This document shows, one piece after another, positions 3,321-12,487 of a DNA stretch of 20,632 nucleotides. This DNA comes from Chlamydiota bacterium (GTDB lineage Bacteria; Auribacterota; Tritonobacteria; UBA1439), in the NCBI GenBank assembly GCA_012729785.1, contig JAAYCL010000039.1, positions 1-20,632 on the forward strand, written 5' to 3'. Both the position numbers and the translations under genes were made by a program. The notes below the pieces were generated by a model that worked only from the letters and a program-made list of their open reading frames with translations, was not told the origin of the DNA and did no database searches. Numbering within the stretch: the first letter of the stretch is position 1; each line of letters opens with the position of its first letter.

Positions 3321-4410
3321 CCCCCGCGTGCGCAGGATCGGCCTCCTGACCGGGGGGGGCGACTGCCCAGGCCTCAACGCCGCCATCCGGGCGGTGGTCA
3401 AGGCCGCGGTCCACGACTACGGCATCTCCGTGGCGGGTTTCCATGACGGGTTCGCCGGGCTTGTCGAAAACCGCGCCCGGGAGCTCTCCTACAACGACGT
3501 GTCGGGCATCCTCACCTGTGGCGGCACCATCCTCGGCACCTCGAACACCGCAGACCCGTTTCGCTACCGCGTCGGGAAAGGGCGCCGGGCGGCCTGGCGC
3601 GACCTCTCCGCGCGGGCGATCCGCAACGCCCGGCGCCGCGGGATCGAGGCGCTCGTCTGCATGGGGGGGGACGGGACGCTCACCATCGCCCGGCGCCTGG
3701 CCGCGCAAGGCCTCCCCTGCATCGGGATCCCCAAGACCATCGACAACGACCTCCGCGAGACCGACGTGACCTTCGGGTTCGACTCGGCGGTCGAGACGGC
3801 GACGGAGGCGATCGACCGGCTCCGCACCACCGCCGAGTCGCACCACCGCGTGATGGTGGTGGAGGTGATGGGGCGCTACGTCGGCTGGCTCGGCCTCTTC
3901 GCCGGGATCGCGGGGGGCGGGGACGTCATCCTCATCCCGGAGATCCCGTACCGCGTCGAGGCGGTCTGCGACGCGGTGCGGAAACGCTCGCGGAGGGGGA
4001 GGCGCTACAGCATCGTCGTCGTCTCCGAGGGGGCGATGCCGCGCGGCGGCGGGCGCACGGTGGACCGGGTCGTCGACGGGAGTCCCGATCCGGTGCGCCT
4101 CGGCGGGATCGGCAAGGAGATCGCGCGCCAGGTCGAAACGCGGACCGGCATCGAGGCGCGCGTCGCCGTGCTCGGCCATCTCCAGCGCGGGGGCCAGCCG
4201 ACGGCGTTCGACCGGGTCCTCGCCACGCGGCTCGGAACGGAGGCGGCGCGCCTCGCGGCCGGCGGGATCTTCGGGCGGATGGTGGCCGTCCGCGGGGGAG
4301 GGGTGACCTCGGCGACGCTCGCGAAGGCGACGGCGGGCCTCAAGCGGGTGCCGCCCGGCCACCCGCTCGTCAGGGCGGCGCGCGCGATGGGCGCGAGTTT
4401 CGGAATATGA
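3313..4410 (+). CDS. pfkA: 6-phosphofructokinase, group III (mixed-substrate type)
   Basis: It phosphorylates fructose 6-phosphate to fructose 1,6-bisphosphate in glycolysis. The 365-residue protein has the family signatures: GGGDCPGLNAAI near the start, GGDGT at 118-122, PKTIDND at 140-146, MGRYVGWL and GHLQRGG. Two residues predict the phosphoryl donor. The position equivalent to E. coli Gly104 is Gly121 (ATP-type), and the position equivalent to Gly124 is Lys141 (seen in PPi enzymes and in group III). This Gly/Lys pair occurs in the ATP-using Streptomyces enzyme, so ATP is the more likely donor, but PPi use is not excluded. The ATG overlaps the lon stop by 8 bases, and the gene ends in an ATGA overlap with the next gene. 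No regulatory duplication is present. Confidence 0.93.
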
Positions 4411-4919
4411 CCGGTTCACTGCGCGAGCGTTGCAGGGCGTTGCTCGCCGCCAATACGTCCAACCACGCGATCGCCCTCGGGCTGGCCGTCGGGGTCTGCG
4501 TGAGCTTCTTCCCCGTCTACGGCCCCCAGATACCCGCCTGTCTGGCCCTCCTGCTGATCTTCAGGAGCTTGAACAAACCGGCCGTCCTGCTCGGGGTCCA
4601 GTTCTCGTGGCTCTACCCGGCGGTGGTCTGGCTCGACTACCGGGCGGGGCGGATGCTGGTGCCGGGGGACTACTCGTGGGTCGTCTGGCCCACCCTCGCG
4701 GAGATGCGCCGGCAGGGCTTCGGCGCGGTGTGCGCACGCCTGGCGGTCACGGTGAGGGACCTGTTCCCGATGATGCTCGCCGGGAGCGTCGCGGCGGGGA
4801 TCGCCGCCGGCGCGTGCACCTACCTCGCCGCCCGCGCGCTCCTGAACCTCTTCCGGAAACGGCCGGCGCCCGACGGCGGGCGGGCCGAATGCGGGGATCG
4901 CCACGGAGACTCGACATGA
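4407..4919 (+). CDS. DUF2062-family small membrane protein
   Basis: This 170-residue protein fits the DUF2062 family: a short amphipathic N-terminus, then the pattern NHAIALGLAVGVCVSFFPVYGPQ, which resembles the family hallmark (small residues followed by FFP and G-Q). There are hydrophobic segments around residues 20-60, 65-80 and 112-145, and a basic C-terminal tail. The biochemical role of DUF2062 proteins is unknown. They often occur with envelope or glycan genes. The start overlaps the pfkA stop as ATGA, and its own stop overlaps the antiporter start the same way. It is therefore embedded in the lon operon and probably made in fixed proportion to its neighbours. Confidence 0.8.
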   Translation: MTGSLRERCRALLAANTSNHAIALGLAVGVCVSFFPVYGPQIPACLALLLIFRSLNKPAVLLGVQFSWLYPAVVWLDYRAGRMLVPGDYSWVVWPTLAEMRRQGFGAVCARLAVTVRDLFPMMLAGSVAAGIAAGACTYLAARALLNLFRKRPAPDGGRAECGDRHGDST

Positions 4920-6412
4920 CCGAGCCGCTCTCCTCGACGCCGCAGATCATCCTCATCGCGGGGGTGCTCTTCTTCTTGAGCGTCCTCACCAACCGGCTCT
5001 CCGAGCGTTTCGGCGTGCCCGCCCTCCTGATGTTTCTCGCGGTCGGGATGCTGGCCGGCTCCGAGGGGGTCGGCGGCATCTACTTCGACAACGCCGCCGT
5101 GGCCAACTTCGTGGGGGTGTTCGCCCTCGCCTATATCCTCTTCTCCGGGGGGTTGGACACGGACTGGCGGGCCGTGCGCCCCGTGCTCTGGCGGGGGCTG
5201 ACGCTCGCCACGCTGGGTGTCGCCGTCACGGCGGCCCTCGTCGGCCTGTTTGCGTGGCTGCTGCTGGATCTGACGCTGAAGGAGGGGATGCTCCTCGGGG
5301 CCATCGTCTCCTCCACGGATGCCGCCGCCGTCTTCGCCCTGATGCGGGCCCGCGGCGTGGGTTTGAAAGGGCACCTCAAGCCCCTCCTCGAACTCGAGTC
5401 CGGGAGCAACGACCCGATGGCGGTGTTTCTCACGACGGCGCTCATCGGCACGATCGTGAACCCGGTCGGCTCGTGGGCGCAGTTTCTGCCGAGACTGCTC
5501 GTCAACATGTCGTGCGGGTGCCTGGTGGGCCTCGCCGTGGGCTTCATGGCCTCCTTCGCCCTCAACCGCCTGCGCCTGGAATACGAGGGGCTCTATCCGG
5601 TCTTGAGCATGAGCATCGTGCTCCTCGCCTACGGGCTCGCCGAGACGCTCCGGGGCAACGGCTTCATCTCCGTCTACATGTGCGGGATCATCATGGGGAA
5701 CAAGGAGTTCCTCCATAAGCGCTATCTGATGCAGTTCCACGACGGGCTGGCGTGGTTGATGCAGATCATCCTGTTCCTCGCGCTCGGGCTCCTGGTCTTC
5801 CCCTCCCGCCTGCTGCCGGTCGCGAAACCGGCCATGCTTCTGGCGGCGTTCCTGATGTTCGTCGCCCGTCCGGTCGCGGTGTACGCCGGGCTCTGGCGGA
5901 GCCGGTTCACCCTCCCGGAGAGGACGCTCGTCGCCTGGACCGGCCTGCGCGGCGCGGTGCCGATCGTGCTCGCGACCTTCCCATTCCGGGCCGGTTACCA
6001 GCGCTCGGACATGATGTTCAACATCGTCTTCTTCATCGTGCTCACCTCGGTGCTTTTGCAGGGCAAGACCCTCATGACGGTGGCGCGGTGGCTGGGGGTG
6101 GACAGGCCCCTGCGCCCCCGGTTGCGCTATCCGATCGAGTTCGAGTGGCAGCCGGGGATGCACAGCCGGACCCGCGAAATCGATATCCCCGCCTCCGGCG
6201 CGGTCGTCGGGAAGCAGGTCTCCGAACTCGATCTCCCGGGAGAGGTGCTGATCCTCCTCATCAGGAGGGGGCAGGAGTTCGTGGTGCCGAAGGGGCAGAC
6301 GCGGATCGAGGCGTACGACACCCTCATGTGCATGGCGAACGGGGAAGACCTCCGGAAGGCGCAGGCCGTGCTCACCGCCCCGGCGGCGCACGAGGAGGAG
6401 GGCGGCGCATGA
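4916..6412 (+). CDS. nhaP2: NhaP2/CvrA-type K+(Na+)/H+ antiporter
   Basis: This CPA1-type antiporter exchanges K+ or Na+ for protons across the inner membrane and helps control cytoplasmic cation levels and pH. Residues 1-395 contain about 12-13 membrane segments. The segment ELESGSNDPMAVFL holds the Asn-Asp pair expected at the ion site, and SSTDAAAVFAL is also typical. The soluble tail (about 410-485) fits a TrkA_C/RCK_C domain. At 498 residues it lacks the extra C-terminal domain of E. coli NhaP2. I place the start at the ATG overlapping the DUF2062 stop, because upstream in-frame sequence lies inside that gene. The last 47 codons are duplicated at 8050-8193. Confidence 0.9.
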   Translation: MTEPLSSTPQIILIAGVLFFLSVLTNRLSERFGVPALLMFLAVGMLAGSEGVGGIYFDNAAVANFVGVFALAYILFSGGLDTDWRAVRPVLWRGLTLATLGVAVTAALVGLFAWLLLDLTLKEGMLLGAIVSSTDAAAVFALMRARGVGLKGHLKPLLELESGSNDPMAVFLTTALIGTIVNPVGSWAQFLPRLLVNMSCGCLVGLAVGFMASFALNRLRLEYEGLYPVLSMSIVLLAYGLAETLRGNGFISVYMCGIIMGNKEFLHKRYLMQFHDGLAWLMQIILFLALGLLVFPSRLLPVAKPAMLLAAFLMFVARPVAVYAGLWRSRFTLPERTLVAWTGLRGAVPIVLATFPFRAGYQRSDMMFNIVFFIVLTSVLLQGKTLMTVARWLGVDRPLRPRLRYPIEFEWQPGMHSRTREIDIPASGAVVGKQVSELDLPGEVLILLIRRGQEFVVPKGQTRIEAYDTLMCMANGEDLRKAQAVLTAPAAHEEEGGA

Positions 6413-6468
6413 CGCCCGGTCTCGAGGCGCGGGTCGACGCGCCTTCGCGGCCGTCCGACGGGCCGGCC
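6269..6468. repeat. Direct repeat, copy 1 (antiporter tail plus PRTase-like gene head)
   Basis: These 200 bases align without gaps to 8050-8249. I count 29 mismatches by eye (about 85% identity). Bases 6269-6412 are the intact end of the antiporter. Bases 6409-6468 are a diverged copy of the first 20 codons of the gene at 8190 (MTPGLEARVDAPSRPSDGPA against MTPGLDARIDALSRRFNEPA). Similarity stops abruptly at both ends. Confidence 0.9.
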
Positions 6469-8028
6469 GGGAAAGATCCGGGGGCCGGGGGAAGACCCCT
6501 GCTCTTTTCCGTGAGCGCGCCGCGCGAGAAGTGCGCGGCGCTCCCCGGCGCCGCGTGCGCGCTGCCACATCGGCGATGCGAGGGAGTCCGCACGAATGCC
6601 GCGCATCGCGCGGCGCGGATGATGCCCCTGATCGCCCTGTGCGCCGCGCACGGGTGCGTCTCCGGGCCGCGGGAGGCGATGCGGATCGACGGGCGCTTCG
6701 ACGACTGGGCCGGGGTCCGTCCGGCGTGCGTCGATCCGCGCGGCGACGGGGGGCACTCGGGCGTCGACTTCGGGCGGGTGTGGATCTGTGACGACCGCGA
6801 CGCGCTCTATTTTCGCTTCGACACAGGGAAAGAGATATCCCTCCAGTCGAGGAACGGCATCGCGCTGTATCTCGACACCGACGACTCCGCCGAAACCGGC
6901 ATTCCGGTCGGGGGGATCGGTGCCGATGTCTCCTGGCGCTTCGGCGCGCGGGAGGGGGTCGACCACCGCTTCGCCCCCGCGAGGATCTTCAACGCCTACG
7001 AGGCCGGCATGGTGACCGGCCCCACGGTGACCTCGCGGGAGCACGAGGTCAAGATGCGGAAGGACGCCGGCACGAGGGCCGTCCGATGGCTCCTGCGCGA
7101 CGAGGGGGACGGCCGAGGCGACATCGCGCCGGACCAGGGCGCGGCGGGGCGCTACGAGTTTACGGGGGCGGAGGTCACCCGTACCGGGGCGCGCCCGCTC
7201 GCGAAGCGCTCGGCGCGGGACGTGCGGGTCGTCAGCAACAACGTCTACGAGGACAACATCTTCAACCGGGAGGCGGAATTCTCCCGCATCCTGAACGCGC
7301 TCGCCCCGGACGTGCTCGCCCTCCAGGAGATCAGGAGGCACCGCGCCGCACAGGTCGCGGAGGTCGTGACGCGAATGACGGGCGGCGCCTGGCACACGGC
7401 CGACCACGCGGACTGCTTCACCCTCAGCCGCTACCCGGTGCTGAGCGCCACGAAGGTCGCCGCCGGCATCGGCGCGCTCCTCGACCTCCCCGACGAAACC
7501 TATGCCCGCGACCTCTTCCTCGTCAACCTCCACCTCGGGGCCGGCACGAAGGACGAGCGCCGGCAGCGGGAGGTCGACGAGGTCGTCGCCGCGCTCCGCG
7601 ACCTGAGGGCGCCGGGGCGCCCCGGCTCGCTGCCCCCCGGCACGCCGATCGTCATCGTCGGCGACCTCAACCTCGTCGGCCTCGCGCGGCAGCTCGCGAC
7701 GCTGCTGACGGGGGACATCGCCGACGAGGCGCGGTTCGGGCCCGACTCGCCGCCGGACTGGGACGGCACGGCGATGACGGACCTCGCCCCCTCGCACCTC
7801 TCCGCCCCGGAGGCGTACACCTGGGCGAACTACCACCGCAGGGGGTTCGGTCCCGGCCGCATCGACTACGTGATCTACGCCGACTCCGCGGTGGCGGTGG
7901 CGAACCGCTTCGTCCTGAGCACCGACACGATGTCGGACGCGGACCTCGCCGCGGGCGGCTTGAGGAGAGACGACACCCGGACGGCGAGCGACCATCTGCC
8001 CGTCGTCGCCGACCTCGTCCTGCCCTGA
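6409..8028 (+). CDS. Exported endonuclease/exonuclease/phosphatase-family protein with a CBM9-like N-terminal domain
   Basis: The EEP fold cleaves phosphoester bonds in nucleic acids, lipids or small phosphates; the substrate here is unknown. Its hallmarks are all present from the ATG at 6409: SNNVY near residue 277, LALQEI with catalytic Glu307, GDLN with Asp419 and Asn421, and SDHLPV with Asp528 and His529. Before it, residues about 91-240 begin IDGRFDDWAGV, resembling CBM9/DOMON-like ligand-binding domains. The start is uncertain. The ATG at 6409 overlaps the antiporter stop and has an upstream GGAGG, but its first 20 codons are a duplicated piece of another gene. An ATG at 6619 gives a short N-terminus, MMPLIALCAAHGC, that looks like the end of a lipoprotein signal. 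A GGGAG-preceded ATG at 6596 is in another frame and meets a stop after 8 codons, so a frameshift is possible. The gene lies between two 200-bp direct repeats. Confidence 0.8.
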   Translation: MTPGLEARVDAPSRPSDGPAGKDPGAGGRPLLFSVSAPREKCAALPGAACALPHRRCEGVRTNAAHRAARMMPLIALCAAHGCVSGPREAMRIDGRFDDWAGVRPACVDPRGDGGHSGVDFGRVWICDDRDALYFRFDTGKEISLQSRNGIALYLDTDDSAETGIPVGGIGADVSWRFGAREGVDHRFAPARIFNAYEAGMVTGPTVTSREHEVKMRKDAGTRAVRWLLRDEGDGRGDIAPDQGAAGRYEFTGAEVTRTGARPLAKRSARDVRVVSNNVYEDNIFNREAEFSRILNALAPDVLALQEIRRHRAAQVAEVVTRMTGGAWHTADHADCFTLSRYPVLSATKVAAGIGALLDLPDETYARDLFLVNLHLGAGTKDERRQREVDEVVAALRDLRAPGRPGSLPPGTPIVIVGDLNLVGLARQLATLLTGDIADEARFGPDSPPDWDGTAMTDLAPSHLSAPEAYTWANYHRRGFGPGRIDYVIYADSAVAVANRFVLSTDTMSDADLAAGGLRRDDTRTASDHLPVVADLVLP

Positions 8029-8049
8029 GCGGGCGCGTCCGGACCTCCG

Positions 8050-8193
8050 GGGCGGGAGTTCGTTGTGCCGAAGGGGCGGACCCGGATCGAGGCGTTCGCC
8101 ACCCTTATGTGCATAACGAACAGGGACGACCCGCAGGGGGCGCAGGCCGTGCCCGCCGCCCCGGCGGGGCAGGCGGAGGAGGGGGGCGCATGA
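8050..8193 (+). pseudogene. Duplicated C-terminal fragment of the antiporter
   Basis: It encodes 47 codons and a stop matching the antiporter end: GREFVVPKGRTRIEAF here against GQEFVVPKGQTRIEAY in the intact gene. The frame is kept with no internal stop. There is no start and no upstream antiporter sequence, so it is a remnant. Its TGA overlaps the ATG of the following gene exactly as in the intact antiporter junction. Confidence 0.88.
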
Positions 8194-8249
8194 CGCCCGG
8201 TCTCGACGCGCGGATCGACGCGCTTTCGCGGCGGTTCAACGAGCCGGCC
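8050..8249. repeat. Direct repeat, copy 2 (antiporter tail remnant plus PRTase-like gene head)
   Basis: This is the partner of 6269-6468, in the same orientation and without gaps. Here the PRTase-like gene head (8190-8249) is the functional copy and the antiporter tail is the remnant. The DNA between the repeats, 6469-8049 (1,581 bp), holds essentially only the EEP-family gene. Confidence 0.9.
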
Positions 8250-9188
8250 ATCCCGGAGCCCTCGATCCGGAAATGGCTCGGGCAGTTCGAGGAGGAGGAC
8301 CGCCCGGCCGCGCTCCTCCTGCTCGAGCAGATCACGTTTCACACCTACCCCGCCCTCATCGGGGAGTCGCGCCTCCTACACGGCAAGCTGAAGGCGGCGC
8401 TCTCGGCGGCGGGGTTCGACGGCGATGGGTTGCGCGACGTAGATTTCACGCGCGAGTTCACCTGCAAAAGCGGGGACATCATCTCCTACATCTACCGGAA
8501 GGCGAACCTCATCCCGACGGCCGATTTCAAGACGGTCGACCGGCTCGTCGAGGCCTCCGCGCAGGAGGAGGAAGGGCGCGGCGAACGGGCGCTGGTGATC
8601 CTTGACGACTACATCGGCACCGGGTCGCAGTTCATATTCCAGTTCGTCGCGAGAAGCCCGGAGGATATCCGCCTCATCGGGAGCTACAAGCGGGTCTTTC
8701 TCTGCTGCGTCGCGGTGCACGAGAAGGCGATCGAAAAGGGGTTCCTCCTGCGGCATGGGAGGATCGAGGAGGTGATCAGGCTCGAGGAGGAGCAGATCCC
8801 CGACGTGGACTTCGCGCCGGACGAGAAGCTGTTCCGCGAATCGCTCCGAAAGGTGGACTGGTCCAGGATCGAGCTCGTCCGCCTCCACACGGACGTCTCC
8901 ATCCTGTCGGAGGAGAACGGCTCCCTCGACCGCGAACAGAAGCGGATCGTGGAGCGGTTTCTGAACAGATACGCGCTCAAGGGGTGCGAGGGCGCGACCA
9001 GTTTCCTCTGCGGGAGGCACGCGTTCTTCTACGGCGCGCCCAACGCCGTCCCGGCCGTCCTGCTGCCGCTCTTCACGCGCGTGGAGGATTTCACGGTCTA
9101 CCCGGACGAGCACTACACCGGGATCACGTCGCAGATCATCGACTACGAAATGGGCGACGGCGGGACGTGCACCATCGTGCGCATTTAG
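8190..9188 (+). CDS. Phosphoribosyltransferase-like protein, resembles PRTase-CE
   Basis: This 332-residue soluble protein has a PRPP-loop-like motif VILDDYIGTGSQ at 136-147: hydrophobic strand, two Asp, then TGS. The N-terminal part (IRKWLGQFEEEDRPAALLLLEQITF) is a helical segment typical of PRTase-CE proteins, which Burroughs and Aravind linked to prokaryotic conflict systems. In that setting such domains are proposed to act on nucleotides or as effectors. The assignment rests on motif resemblance, so moderate confidence is right for the family and low for the role. The ATG overlaps the TGA of the antiporter-tail remnant, with GGAGG upstream. Before the insertion it would have overlapped the antiporter gene itself. 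A 109-bp palindrome follows its stop. Confidence 0.65.
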   Translation: MTPGLDARIDALSRRFNEPAIPEPSIRKWLGQFEEEDRPAALLLLEQITFHTYPALIGESRLLHGKLKAALSAAGFDGDGLRDVDFTREFTCKSGDIISYIYRKANLIPTADFKTVDRLVEASAQEEEGRGERALVILDDYIGTGSQFIFQFVARSPEDIRLIGSYKRVFLCCVAVHEKAIEKGFLLRHGRIEEVIRLEEEQIPDVDFAPDEKLFRESLRKVDWSRIELVRLHTDVSILSEENGSLDREQKRIVERFLNRYALKGCEGATSFLCGRHAFFYGAPNAVPAVLLPLFTRVEDFTVYPDEHYTGITSQIIDYEMGDGGTCTIVRI

Positions 9189-9190
9189 CG

Positions 9191-9299
9191 CAGACGTTGT
9201 ATGGAACCGCATCCGGGGGAAGAAGTTATACATTAAGTCGTCCCTGGGACGACTAAACGTATAACTGGTTACCCCGGAATGTGTTGCATACAACGTCTG
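9191..9299. repeat. 109-bp in-register palindrome (MITE-like or hairpin element)
   Basis: The outer arms CAGACGTTGTATG (9191-9203) and CATACAACGTCTG (9287-9299) are perfect inverted repeats. The inner arms AGTCGTCCC (9236-9244) and GGGACGACT (9246-9254) share the same centre, base 9245. Pairing each base with its mirror gives about 44 of 54 matches without gaps, including AGTTATAC/GTATAACT and TCCGGGG/CCCCGGA. The element has much lower GC than its surroundings. No T-run follows, so it is not a standard terminator. It could be a miniature inverted-repeat element, a cruciform or an mRNA-stability hairpin. Confidence 0.85.
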
Positions 9300-9310
9300 T
9301 GTGATATACT
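9283..9310 (+). promoter_or_regulatory. Promoter for the MuiA-family gene
   Basis: An extended -10 (TG-a-TATACT, 9302-9310) is preceded by GTTGCA at 16 bases or TTGCAT at 15 bases. The -35 region falls inside the right arm of the palindrome, so the element overlaps the promoter. The predicted leader is about 18 nt and includes GGGAGG. Confidence 0.6.
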
Positions 9311-9333
9311 ACGCCGAAAGACGGGAGGACTAA

Positions 9334-11007
9334 ATGAAGACCTGGCGGTGGGTGGCGGCAATGGCGTGCGCGATGGCGATCGCGGCGGCGTCGGCGCTGT
9401 GCGGCGCGGCGGGCGGGAAGCCGCCGGCGGTGGAATCCGACATCGCGGCGGTCACGGTCTACGCGGACCGCGCGCGGGTGACGCGCCGGGCGGAACTCGC
9501 CCTCGACGCGGGGGTGCAGTCGTTCGTCTTCGCCGGGCTCCCGGCGGGTCTCATCGAGAGCTCTTTGCGGGCGCGCGGGGAGGGCGCGGCGGGGGTGACC
9601 ATCCTGGGGACGGAGATGGAACCCGAGTACCTGGCGGAGGCGCAGGACGCGCGGGTGCGCGAGCTCGAGGGGCGGATCGAGGCGCTCGAGGAGGACGCGC
9701 GCGCGCTCGAGGACGAGACGAAGGCGGTGGGGCTCCAGATGAAGTTCGTCGAGTCGATCGGCGCCTCCGTGCCCGAGGGGATATCGAAGGAGATGCTCCT
9801 CAGGGAGCCGAACCCGGCGGAGTGGGCCAGGGTGGTGGAGTTCATCGGCAGGGAGCGCGGCGCCCTCGCGCCGAAACTGCGGGAGGGGCGGAAAAAGCAT
9901 CGCGATCTGATGAAGGAGATCGAGGCGGCGAAGAAGACGCTGGAGCGCATCGTCTCCGAGTCCCCGCGGGAGCGCAAGAACGTCCGCGTGACGCTCGAGG
10001 CCGCCTCGAAGGGGCCGTTTCTGCTCGAGCTCTCGTACGTGACCTGGGGCGCGGGATGGGAGCCGCTCTACGACGCCCGCGCCGAGCGCGCCGCGGGGAA
10101 GGTTTCGCTGACCTACTGCGCGCAGGTGCGGCAGGCGACGGGGGAGGACTGGACCGACGTCGCGCTGGAGCTCTCCACCTCCCGCCCGTCGGTGAGCGGA
10201 AGGCCGCCGGAGCTTGCGCCGTGGTACATCGGCTTCGAAAGGCCGCGCGCGGCCAGGATGATGGCGCTTTCGGCCGCGGCCCCGGTCCCCCTGGGCGAGG
10301 CCGCCGAAAAAGCGGACGCGGCGGCCCCCGCGGGCGTGCCCGTCGAGGCGCGGGTCGCCACCGCGGAAATCGGCCGCCGCGGCGAGGCGGTCACCTTCAC
10401 CGTGAAGCGGAAGGAGACGATCCGGGGCGACAACTCCCTGCACAAGACCGTGATCGCGGAGTTCCCGCTCGTGGCGGAGTACGGCTACCTCTCCGTGCCC
10501 AAGCTGGCCGAGTTCGCCTTCCTGACGGCCGAGGTGAAGAACGAGACCGGCTTCCCGCTGCTGGCGGGGGCGGTGCAGATCTTCCTCGGGCCGGAGTTCG
10601 TCGGATCGTCCTCGATCGAGCACGTGGAGACCGGCGCGTCGTTCCCCCTCTACCTCGGCATCGACGAGGGGATCCGCGTGAAGCGGAAGCTCCTCGCGGC
10701 GGAGACGGAGAAGGGGCTGGTGCGGCGCCGCACGGGGTGGAGGAGCTTCCGCTACCGGATCGAGGTGGAGAATCTGCGGGACCGGACGGAGACGGTCACC
10801 GTGCTCGACCAGATGCCGGTCTCGAACTCCCCCGACATCGCGGTGGCGCTCGCCTCGGCGTCGCCGGAGCCGTCGAAGATCGCGGAGTGGGAGACGCCGG
10901 GGTCGCTCGCGTGGAGGCTGGAACCGGCTCCGAAGGAGAAGAAGACGGTGGAGTTCGAGTTCACGGTCCAGTACCCGAAGGAGAGGGAGATCGAGGGGCT
11001 GGACTGA
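9334..11007 (+). CDS. MuiA-family exported protein (DUF4140/DUF4139)
   Basis: The 557-residue protein starts with a signal peptide (MKTWRWVAAMACAMAIAAASALCGA). A DUF4140-like beta domain follows at about 38-115 (IAAVTVYADRARVTR). Next is a charged coiled coil at about 110-210, then a DUF4139 domain from about 215 to the end. The motif SYVTWGAGWEPLYDAR and the final stretch YPKEREIEGLD are characteristic of the 'mucoidy inhibitor MuiA' family. The molecular function of the family is unknown; the name comes from a capsule-suppressing effect reported in E. coli. Export to the periplasm or surface is inferred from the signal peptide. The start is supported by GGGAGG 6 bases before the ATG, and its own promoter lies just upstream. 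Confidence 0.85.
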   Translation: MKTWRWVAAMACAMAIAAASALCGAAGGKPPAVESDIAAVTVYADRARVTRRAELALDAGVQSFVFAGLPAGLIESSLRARGEGAAGVTILGTEMEPEYLAEAQDARVRELEGRIEALEEDARALEDETKAVGLQMKFVESIGASVPEGISKEMLLREPNPAEWARVVEFIGRERGALAPKLREGRKKHRDLMKEIEAAKKTLERIVSESPRERKNVRVTLEAASKGPFLLELSYVTWGAGWEPLYDARAERAAGKVSLTYCAQVRQATGEDWTDVALELSTSRPSVSGRPPELAPWYIGFERPRAARMMALSAAAPVPLGEAAEKADAAAPAGVPVEARVATAEIGRRGEAVTFTVKRKETIRGDNSLHKTVIAEFPLVAEYGYLSVPKLAEFAFLTAEVKNETGFPLLAGAVQIFLGPEFVGSSSIEHVETGASFPLYLGIDEGIRVKRKLLAAETEKGLVRRRTGWRSFRYRIEVENLRDRTETVTVLDQMPVSNSPDIAVALASASPEPSKIAEWETPGSLAWRLEPAPKEKKTVEFEFTVQYPKEREIEGLD

Positions 11008-11013
11008 CCGTCG

Positions 11014-11104
11014 CCACGGAGCGCACGGAGACAGTGGCAGCGTTCTTCGCCGCGGATCCGCGGAAATCCGCGGCGCCGTTGCTTTTCTCCGCGTCCTTTG
11101 TGCC
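11014..11104. repeat. Intergenic inverted-repeat element between the MuiA gene and lysC
   Basis: The inner arms CGCCGCGGAT (11048-11057) and ATCCGCGGCG (11066-11075) are perfect, with an 8-base loop. Outside them CCACGGAGCGCACGGAG on the left and CTCCGCGTCCTTTGTG on the right are imperfect complements. The phrasing (CACGGAG...CTCCGCG...TTTGTG) resembles dispersed intergenic repeats common in some environmental genomes. A terminator role for the upstream gene is possible, since CTTTT follows shortly after, but weakly supported. Confidence 0.55.
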
Positions 11105-11140
11105 CTATGTAACGACGCGCATCCTGCAAGGAGATCCACG

Positions 11141-12487
11141 ATGATCGTGATGAAGTTCGGGGGGACGTCGGTGGGCGGCCCCGAGGCGATGCGGCGGGTG
11201 CGCCGGATCGTCGCGGACCGCCTCGCCCTCGACCCGGTGGTGGTGGTCTCCGCGGTGGGGGGGGTCACGAACCTTCTCCTCGAGAACGCGCGGCGTTCGC
11301 GGGAGCGCTCGCGGGAGGGGATACGGCTGCTCGAGGAGTTCCGCCGCGTCCACGACCGGATCATCGGCGAGCTCGGCCTCCCCGCGGGGCTCGTGGCGAA
11401 GGAGTACACCCAGCTCGCCGAGGTGCTCCACGGCGTCTACTACCTCGGCGAGCTCACCCCGCGGACGCTCGACTACGTGGCCAGCTTCGGCGAGCGCGTC
11501 TCGGCAAAGATCATGAGCGCCCTCTTCGAGGCGGGGGGGATCCCGAGCCGGCCGTACACGGGCGCGGAGGCGGGGATCGTCACCAACGACGAGCACGGCA
11601 ACGCCAGCCCGCTCCCCTCGACCTACGGGATCGTCCGCAGGCGGCTGAAGAGGGCGCGGAAGCTCCCGGTGGTCACCGGGTTCATCGCGCGGAACAGGCG
11701 GGGGGAGATCACCACCCTCGGGCGCGGCGGGAGCGATTTCACCGCCGCCATCATAGGGCGCGGCGTGGGCGCGCGGGAGATCCAGATCTGGACCGACGTG
11801 GCGGGGATGATGACCGCCGATCCGCGCGTGGTCAAAACGGCGCGCACGATCCCGAGGCTCGGCTTCGACGAGGCCGCCGAGCTGGCCTACTTCGGCGCGA
11901 AGGTGCTGCACCCACGGACGATCGAGCCGGCGGTCGAGAAGGAGATCCCGGTGCGGATCCTCTACACCTTCGCGCCCGACGCCCCGGGGACGCTCGTGGT
12001 GCGGAAGGCGCCCCGGTCCCGCGGGGCGATCCGCGCCATCGCCTGCAAGAAGCGCAACACCCTCTTCACGCTGCGCTCCACGCGGATGCTGGCCGCGCAC
12101 GGCTATCTCGCCCGCATCTTCGAGGTCTTCAAGCACTACGCCGTCTCCGTGGACCTGATCGCGACCTCGGAGGTGAGCGTCTCCGTCACGGTGGACGCCG
12201 GCGCGGCGCCCAAGCTCAAGGGGATCATCGGCGAGCTCGGGAGGATCTGCACCGCCCGCGTCTTCGAGAACCGCGCCATCGTCTGCCTCGTGGGGGAGGG
12301 GATCGGGGAGACGCCGAGGATCGCCGGGAAGATCTTCAGCGGCGTCGGGCGCGCGGGGGTGAACGTGGAGATGATCTCCCAGGCCTCCTCCGCCCGTAAC
12401 ATCAGTTTCCTGGTCAAGGACGAGGACGCGGACAAGACGGTGCGCCTCCTGCACCGCAGCTTCCTCGAGAAGGGGGCGCGGGGATGA
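11141..12487 (+). CDS. lysC: Aspartate kinase (monofunctional, LysC/AK-III-like)
   Basis: It phosphorylates aspartate, the first step toward lysine, threonine, methionine and diaminopimelate. The 448-residue protein has KFGGTSVGG at 5-13, FGERVSA for the aspartate site, GRGGSDFTA at 194-202 and WTDVAGMMTADPR for the nucleotide site. Two ACT domains follow from about residue 300. SVDLIATSEVSVSVTVD closely resembles the lysine-binding ACT segment of E. coli LysC, so lysine feedback inhibition is likely. AAGGAG lies 9 bases before the ATG. No lysine riboswitch is recognisable in the 133 bases upstream. The stop overlaps the next gene as ATGA. Confidence 0.95.
   Translation: MIVMKFGGTSVGGPEAMRRVRRIVADRLALDPVVVVSAVGGVTNLLLENARRSRERSREGIRLLEEFRRVHDRIIGELGLPAGLVAKEYTQLAEVLHGVYYLGELTPRTLDYVASFGERVSAKIMSALFEAGGIPSRPYTGAEAGIVTNDEHGNASPLPSTYGIVRRRLKRARKLPVVTGFIARNRRGEITTLGRGGSDFTAAIIGRGVGAREIQIWTDVAGMMTADPRVVKTARTIPRLGFDEAAELAYFGAKVLHPRTIEPAVEKEIPVRILYTFAPDAPGTLVVRKAPRSRGAIRAIACKKRNTLFTLRSTRMLAAHGYLARIFEVFKHYAVSVDLIATSEVSVSVTVDAGAAPKLKGIIGELGRICTARVFENRAIVCLVGEGIGETPRIAGKIFSGVGRAGVNVEMISQASSARNISFLVKDEDADKTVRLLHRSFLEKGARG

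Follow-up and report, generated by a model that had tools for sequence, protein, structure and literature searches.

The target-site duplications made by transposases are usually a few bases long, and genes are often duplicated in tandem or deleted. For mitochondrial remnants similar to those described here, duplication-random loss is the standard model (PMC5745709). In homology-facilitated illegitimate recombination, as set out in PMC3240628, DNA is added by way of a homologous anchor and its other end is joined illegitimately; the term is also used in PMC5361080, on stepwise immunity gene arrays.

Here we describe a bacterial locus where an EEP-family (endonuclease/exonuclease/phosphatase) gene stands between two copies of the junction of its neighbors. 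The window, which is the whole stretch of 20,632 nucleotides that was analyzed, holds the following features around this gene:

4916 to 6412, plus strand: intact K+/H+ antiporter gene, CPA1-type with a TrkA_C domain (NCBIfam NF003716; Pfam Na_H_Exchanger and TrkA_C)
6268 to 6468, plus strand: repeat copy 1, a functional antiporter tail to 6412 and a decayed PRTase head at 6409 to 6468
6409 to 6412, plus strand: ATGA overlap of copy 1, read from the sequence
6469 to 6618, plus strand: unique 5' part of the insert, with an SD-like GAGGGAG (6580) and, close to it, an ATG (6596) in another frame than the EEP gene
6619 to 8028, plus strand: EEP-family gene (Pfam Exo_endo_phos), 6619 being a candidate start
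8049 to 8249, plus strand: repeat copy 2, a decayed antiporter tail at 8050 to 8193, then a functional PRTase head
8190 to 9188, plus strand: intact PRTase-like gene (PRTase-CE, PF24390), with the conserved PRPP-loop-like motif ILDDYIGTGSQ
9191 to 9299, no strand assigned: 109-bp palindromic element with 54-nt arms that are 81% complementary
9334 to 11007, plus strand: DUF4140/DUF4139 gene (Pfam DUF4139, 6.8e-57), by synteny the next gene of the ancestral operon

Self-comparison of the window aligned the two copies as a direct repeat of 201 bp, gap-free and with 29 mismatches (86% identity). A first-pass annotation of this DNA had described the repeat as 200 bp without gaps and with the same number of mismatches, which is correct except that the similarity starts one base earlier (6268 and 8049). 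As it had also said, each copy joins the end of the antiporter to the start of the PRTase-like gene: copy 1 carries the last 47 antiporter codons with the stop and the first 20 PRTase-like codons, and copy 2 (8050 to 8249) has the same content, its ATGA overlap lying at 8190 to 8193. A ribosome-binding-like GGAGGAGGG is found 5' of the ATG in both copies, at 6394 and 8175. Both edges of the repeat are sharp, and the sequence outside it scores like shuffles. When the genome (2.59 Mb, 45 contigs) was searched with copy 1, the repeat pair was recovered at E = 4e-62 with no further copy beyond a weak 67-base match, while in 57 other genomes the sole sizeable match was an antiporter coding stretch in the genome G039 and the remaining matches spanned 26 to 47 bases. 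A conserved element recurring at unrelated loci, which the annotation had named as evidence that would count against its account, was looked for and not found in the genome or its relatives, and we ruled out a dispersed element. It is true, as the annotation remarked, that the frames of both broken pieces are open, but this is uninformative as 48% of wrong-frame 70-codon windows are open in this G+C-rich window. An open frame running from the captured PRTase ATG (6409) through the EEP gene was rejected as a sign of fusion, such frames being common here.

Comparison with outgroups distinguishes the two halves of each copy. Where the PRTase heads differ, an archaeal outgroup sided with copy 2 at six nucleotides and with copy 1 at one, and at the amino acid level it favored copy 2 by 6 to 0. 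Where the antiporter tails differ, the G039 outgroup sided with copy 1 eleven times and with copy 2 four times (7 to 2 for amino acids), and copy 1 outscored copy 2 against all ten antiporter homologues compared. The inner halves, namely the PRTase head of copy 1 and the antiporter tail of copy 2, are therefore relics and the outer halves functional, which is the pattern that duplication of an intact junction around the EEP gene should leave. Very probably, then, the antiporter and PRTase-like genes once overlapped by ATGA and their junction has since been interrupted and duplicated. The relic-specific decay bears out both parts of what had been proposed from the sequence, an ancestral order of antiporter overlapping PRTase-like gene and a later event that left a broken PRTase head before the EEP gene and a broken antiporter tail behind it.

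The kind of change separating the copies is also informative. Between them, dN is 0.18 and dS 0.16 in the antiporter tail, and dN is 0.20 and dS 0 in the PRTase head; for the functional antiporter, compared with its orthologue in the congener, the values are 0.086 and 0.44. Pooled, the copies differ by 5 synonymous and 24 non-synonymous changes as compared to 104:71 in genus-level antiporter orthologues (Fisher p = 3e-5). Since the differences are mainly non-synonymous, the copies were identical, or nearly so, when formed and have drifted since, the inner parts without selection. A diverged junction would have brought mostly synonymous differences, and a diverged donor is therefore disfavored. 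The duplication may be younger than the split of the genus, with synonymous differences of about 10% between the copies and 33% between the orthologues, although with few sites and an extreme base composition this comparison is only indicative.

Both genes of the ancestral pair score above the cut-offs of their families. The antiporter scored 599.5 bits against NF003716 (K+/H+ antiporter PRK05326; curated cut-off 355) and the PRTase-like protein 51.4 bits against PF24390 (gathering cut-off 27). The only close relative of the latter that we found is a full-length protein, 51% identical, in a Methanospirillaceae MAG, where no antiporter lies directly upstream. The gene was absent from 58 other genomes searched, including every other genome of the phylum among them, no relatives were found in the viral contigs, phages and plasmids of the collections searched, and sequence search found no solved-structure relative of this protein or of the EEP protein. 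The true gene downstream of the PRTase-like gene is the one at 9334 to 11007 rather than a longer ORF at 9279 to 11144. The antiporter itself (window 4407 to 6412, and L049) is patchily distributed: in this genus it lies between DUF2062 and DUF4139 and it is missing there in the family relative G003, while G039, which belongs to a distant family, has one that is 72-74% identical beside an unrelated beta-helix-like gene. This patchy presence, together with the identity shared with a distant family, suggests transfer of the antiporter within the phylum.

The EEP protein matched Exo_endo_phos (PF03372) at 3.8e-14 and 53.4 bits, above the gathering cut-off of 24.5, and has the family motifs QE, GDLN, and SDH. 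It also contains a lipobox-like LCAAHGC, a putative lipoprotein signal, and the product is predicted to be a secreted nuclease/phosphatase-like protein. Third-position G+C is that of the neighboring genes. The 150-bp flank at 6469 to 6618 had no significant match or source elsewhere in the genome, and the region upstream of the G003 orthologue matches it only briefly, near 6571 to 6582. The ATG at 6596 is one base out of the EEP frame, in which the ATGs are at 6619 and 6622; judging from these positions, either the native start has been shifted out of frame or a later ATG serves. The SD-like site and the ATG at 6596 encode MPRIARRG, whose stop codon, a TGA, overlaps the in-frame ATGATG at 6619. 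This stretch (6580 to 6622 of the window) could be read as a frameshifted signal peptide or a leader peptide.

The gene order in relatives makes the antiporter, EEP, and PRTase-like genes all additions or losses at this locus, for G003, with the order Lon-PFK-DUF2062-DUF4139-aspartokinase-DUF84, joins DUF2062 directly to DUF4139. In the congener G001 the order is Lon-PFK-DUF2062-antiporter, the contig ending inside the antiporter and the next one beginning inside the DUF4139 gene, and neither the EEP nor the PRTase-like gene was found in this 80%-complete assembly. No uninterrupted antiporter-PRTase junction was found in the relatives: none of those searched has the PRTase-like gene, and the contigs of G001 end on both sides. 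G003 does have an EEP orthologue, 63% identical, at another locus, where the gene on one side reads by eye as an Mg transporter and those on the other as a response regulator, then agmatinase and arginine decarboxylase. The corresponding RR-speB-pdaD block is kept on another contig of the present genome without an EEP gene, and no convincing EEP relic was seen there (contig C14). G031 and G028 have their orthologues in different neighborhoods again, orthologues more distant than that of G003 occur in other families of the phylum, and no duplication adjacent to the EEP gene was found in the other genomes examined, G006 showing a 68-bp repeat pair with a spacing of about 3.2 kb. With orthologues in family and phylum, differing neighborhoods, and a block that lacks it here, the EEP gene is thus a phylum gene that changes place, by relocation or by transfer within the phylum, and it bears no mark of foreignness. 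As a side observation, a stretch of about 120 bp that precedes the Mg-transporter-like gene of G003 (L047, 11676 to 11799) is 79-84% conserved at other places in four relatives and had no Rfam match; this is possibly an undescribed conserved element.

We also surveyed the genome for other long repeats at close spacing, sampling about 760 kb of its own sequence and reading seven other pairs in detail. None of the seven enclosed an inserted gene between copies of a coding junction. Most of the repeats surveyed resembled paralogous or internally repetitive genes, the exceptions being a family of palindromic elements and a two-gene cassette on contig C13. The 109-bp near-palindrome of the window, which lies 2 bp past the PRTase stop and has the termini CAGACGTTGTATG and CATACAACGTCTG, belongs to this family; the genome has at least six further members of 107-118 bp, along with some half copies, but a search of the seven nearest relatives found none. 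The element resembles a MITE-like hairpin, and we do not assign it to the event at the EEP gene. The cassette (L119) encodes a 101-aa protein, of weak similarity to DUF6788, together with an NTP_transf_8 nucleotidyltransferase, and is surrounded by direct repeats of 137 and 146 bp (5991 to 6127 and 7345 to 7490; 80%), hairpin-like at the start. On contig C37 (L143), 130-bp direct repeats (10061 to 10190 and 11205 to 11334; 88%) enclose a short stretch that contains a single small ORF, and they open with the terminus of the palindromic element (GCAGACGTTG[T/C]ATGCAATAC). Two 93-bp tandem copies, 91% identical and 96 bp apart, are found at 1 to 189 of the window.

How the junction came to be duplicated can be stated less firmly. 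We lean, at a little under an even chance, towards a one-step duplicating insertion of lineage-derived DNA carrying the EEP gene. An EEP-bearing fragment from the bacterium's own lineage, with no distant donor, would have been joined into the junction in a single step. This could have occurred at a staggered break that was filled in on both sides, or through a polymerase that switched template to the EEP locus and returned 201 bp upstream of its point of departure; by either route the junction would be copied on both sides of the insert, the exact joining chemistry being conjectured from the scar. Such an insertion would be tolerated as it leaves both neighbors whole and supplies the PRTase-like gene with a fresh ribosome-binding site and start, and translation of this gene should still be possible via copy 2, where GGAGGAGGG is retained before the ATG. 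The insertion would be the most economical course because the EEP gene came from another neighborhood anyway and a single event is enough, and the sharp edges, the gap-free copies, and the relic polarity on both halves speak in its favor; against it, no relative searched shows the uninterrupted junction, and 201 bp is a long target duplication for break repair. Tandem duplication followed by loss would give an identical final map, as would a single crossover, and the data do not separate the insertion from tandem duplication and loss, which we regard as possible though clearly short of even. An antiporter-PRTase pair may have been doubled and the EEP gene may then have taken the place of the inner bodies of both genes, PRTase and antiporter. 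Alternatively, in an antiporter-PRTase-EEP arrangement, the segment that begins at antiporter codon 452 and ends just beyond the EEP gene may have been duplicated, with deletion of the first PRTase body and the second EEP gene. This course predicts what is seen, a neutral broken PRTase head before the EEP gene and a neutral broken antiporter tail after it. However, it requires two to four events, the 150-bp flank beyond the repeat has no significant homology to the PRTase-like gene nor the EEP end to the antiporter, and the genome has no second EEP gene.

The first-pass annotation had favored a Campbell-type single crossover with a circle carrying the EEP gene and the junction. This would yield exactly the observed layout, but we consider it unlikely: the circle must beforehand have held the antiporter-PRTase junction, PRTase relatives are missing from the plasmid, phage, and viral collections, and the EEP gene, for which the annotation had envisaged a foreign origin, has an orthologue within its own family. 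That the copies show no excess of synonymous differences argues against a circle of diverged origin; a near-identical circle still fits, and nothing points specifically to it. It is still more doubtful that the EEP gene is a habitual roamer of the phylum that enters operons in one step, duplicating hundreds of target bases and so giving both downstream genes a ribosome-binding site. Its different neighborhood in each relative read is in keeping with this, yet the other EEP loci examined have no flanking duplication. Finally, the repeat might be no scar but a selected regulatory or coding element kept twice, as GGAGGAGGG and the ATGA are retained in both copies and are needed at least in copy 2 for PRTase translation. 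We hold this to be very improbable, given that the inner parts show a neutral substitution pattern and that the repeat is absent elsewhere in the genome and in relatives, save for the G039 antiporter coding match.

The locus is a clean and datable scar in which two decaying gene fragments preserve an earlier gene order. The fragments supply an internal neutral clock, having changed by about 10-18% per site class, where congeners differ by about 33% at synonymous sites. The locus also suggests that an operon of overlapping genes can take up an extra gene with its neighbors unbroken, as the duplicated junction brings a ribosome-binding site and a start.

Several known systems resemble parts of this locus. 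The PRTase-like protein gave weak to moderate matches to the PADLOC retron III-A PRTase profiles, its N-terminal half matching the type III effector PRTase_III-A at 1.7e-15; as regards partners of such a retron, no reverse transcriptase was found by Pfam among the window ORFs scanned or, by eye, among the ORFs beside the archaeal PRTase relative, and the window had no Rfam match. Transposon target-site duplications likewise place direct repeats of the target on either side of an insert, but here the repeat, at 201 bp, is far longer than those of transposases and the insert has no transposase or terminal inverted repeat. In homology-facilitated illegitimate recombination (PMC3240628), the homologous anchor is a point of likeness, whereas at this locus the part of the anchor falls to the junction of the target itself, on both sides. 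The mitochondrial remnants of tandem duplication-random loss (PMC5745709) share with this locus an altered gene order and decaying partial copies of neighbors at the joints; they differ in that here the remnants enclose a gene from another neighborhood and no full-length duplicated gene is left. The kind of event is already known and belongs to ordinary genome remodeling, though the rearrangement scar that it left is an unusually legible one.
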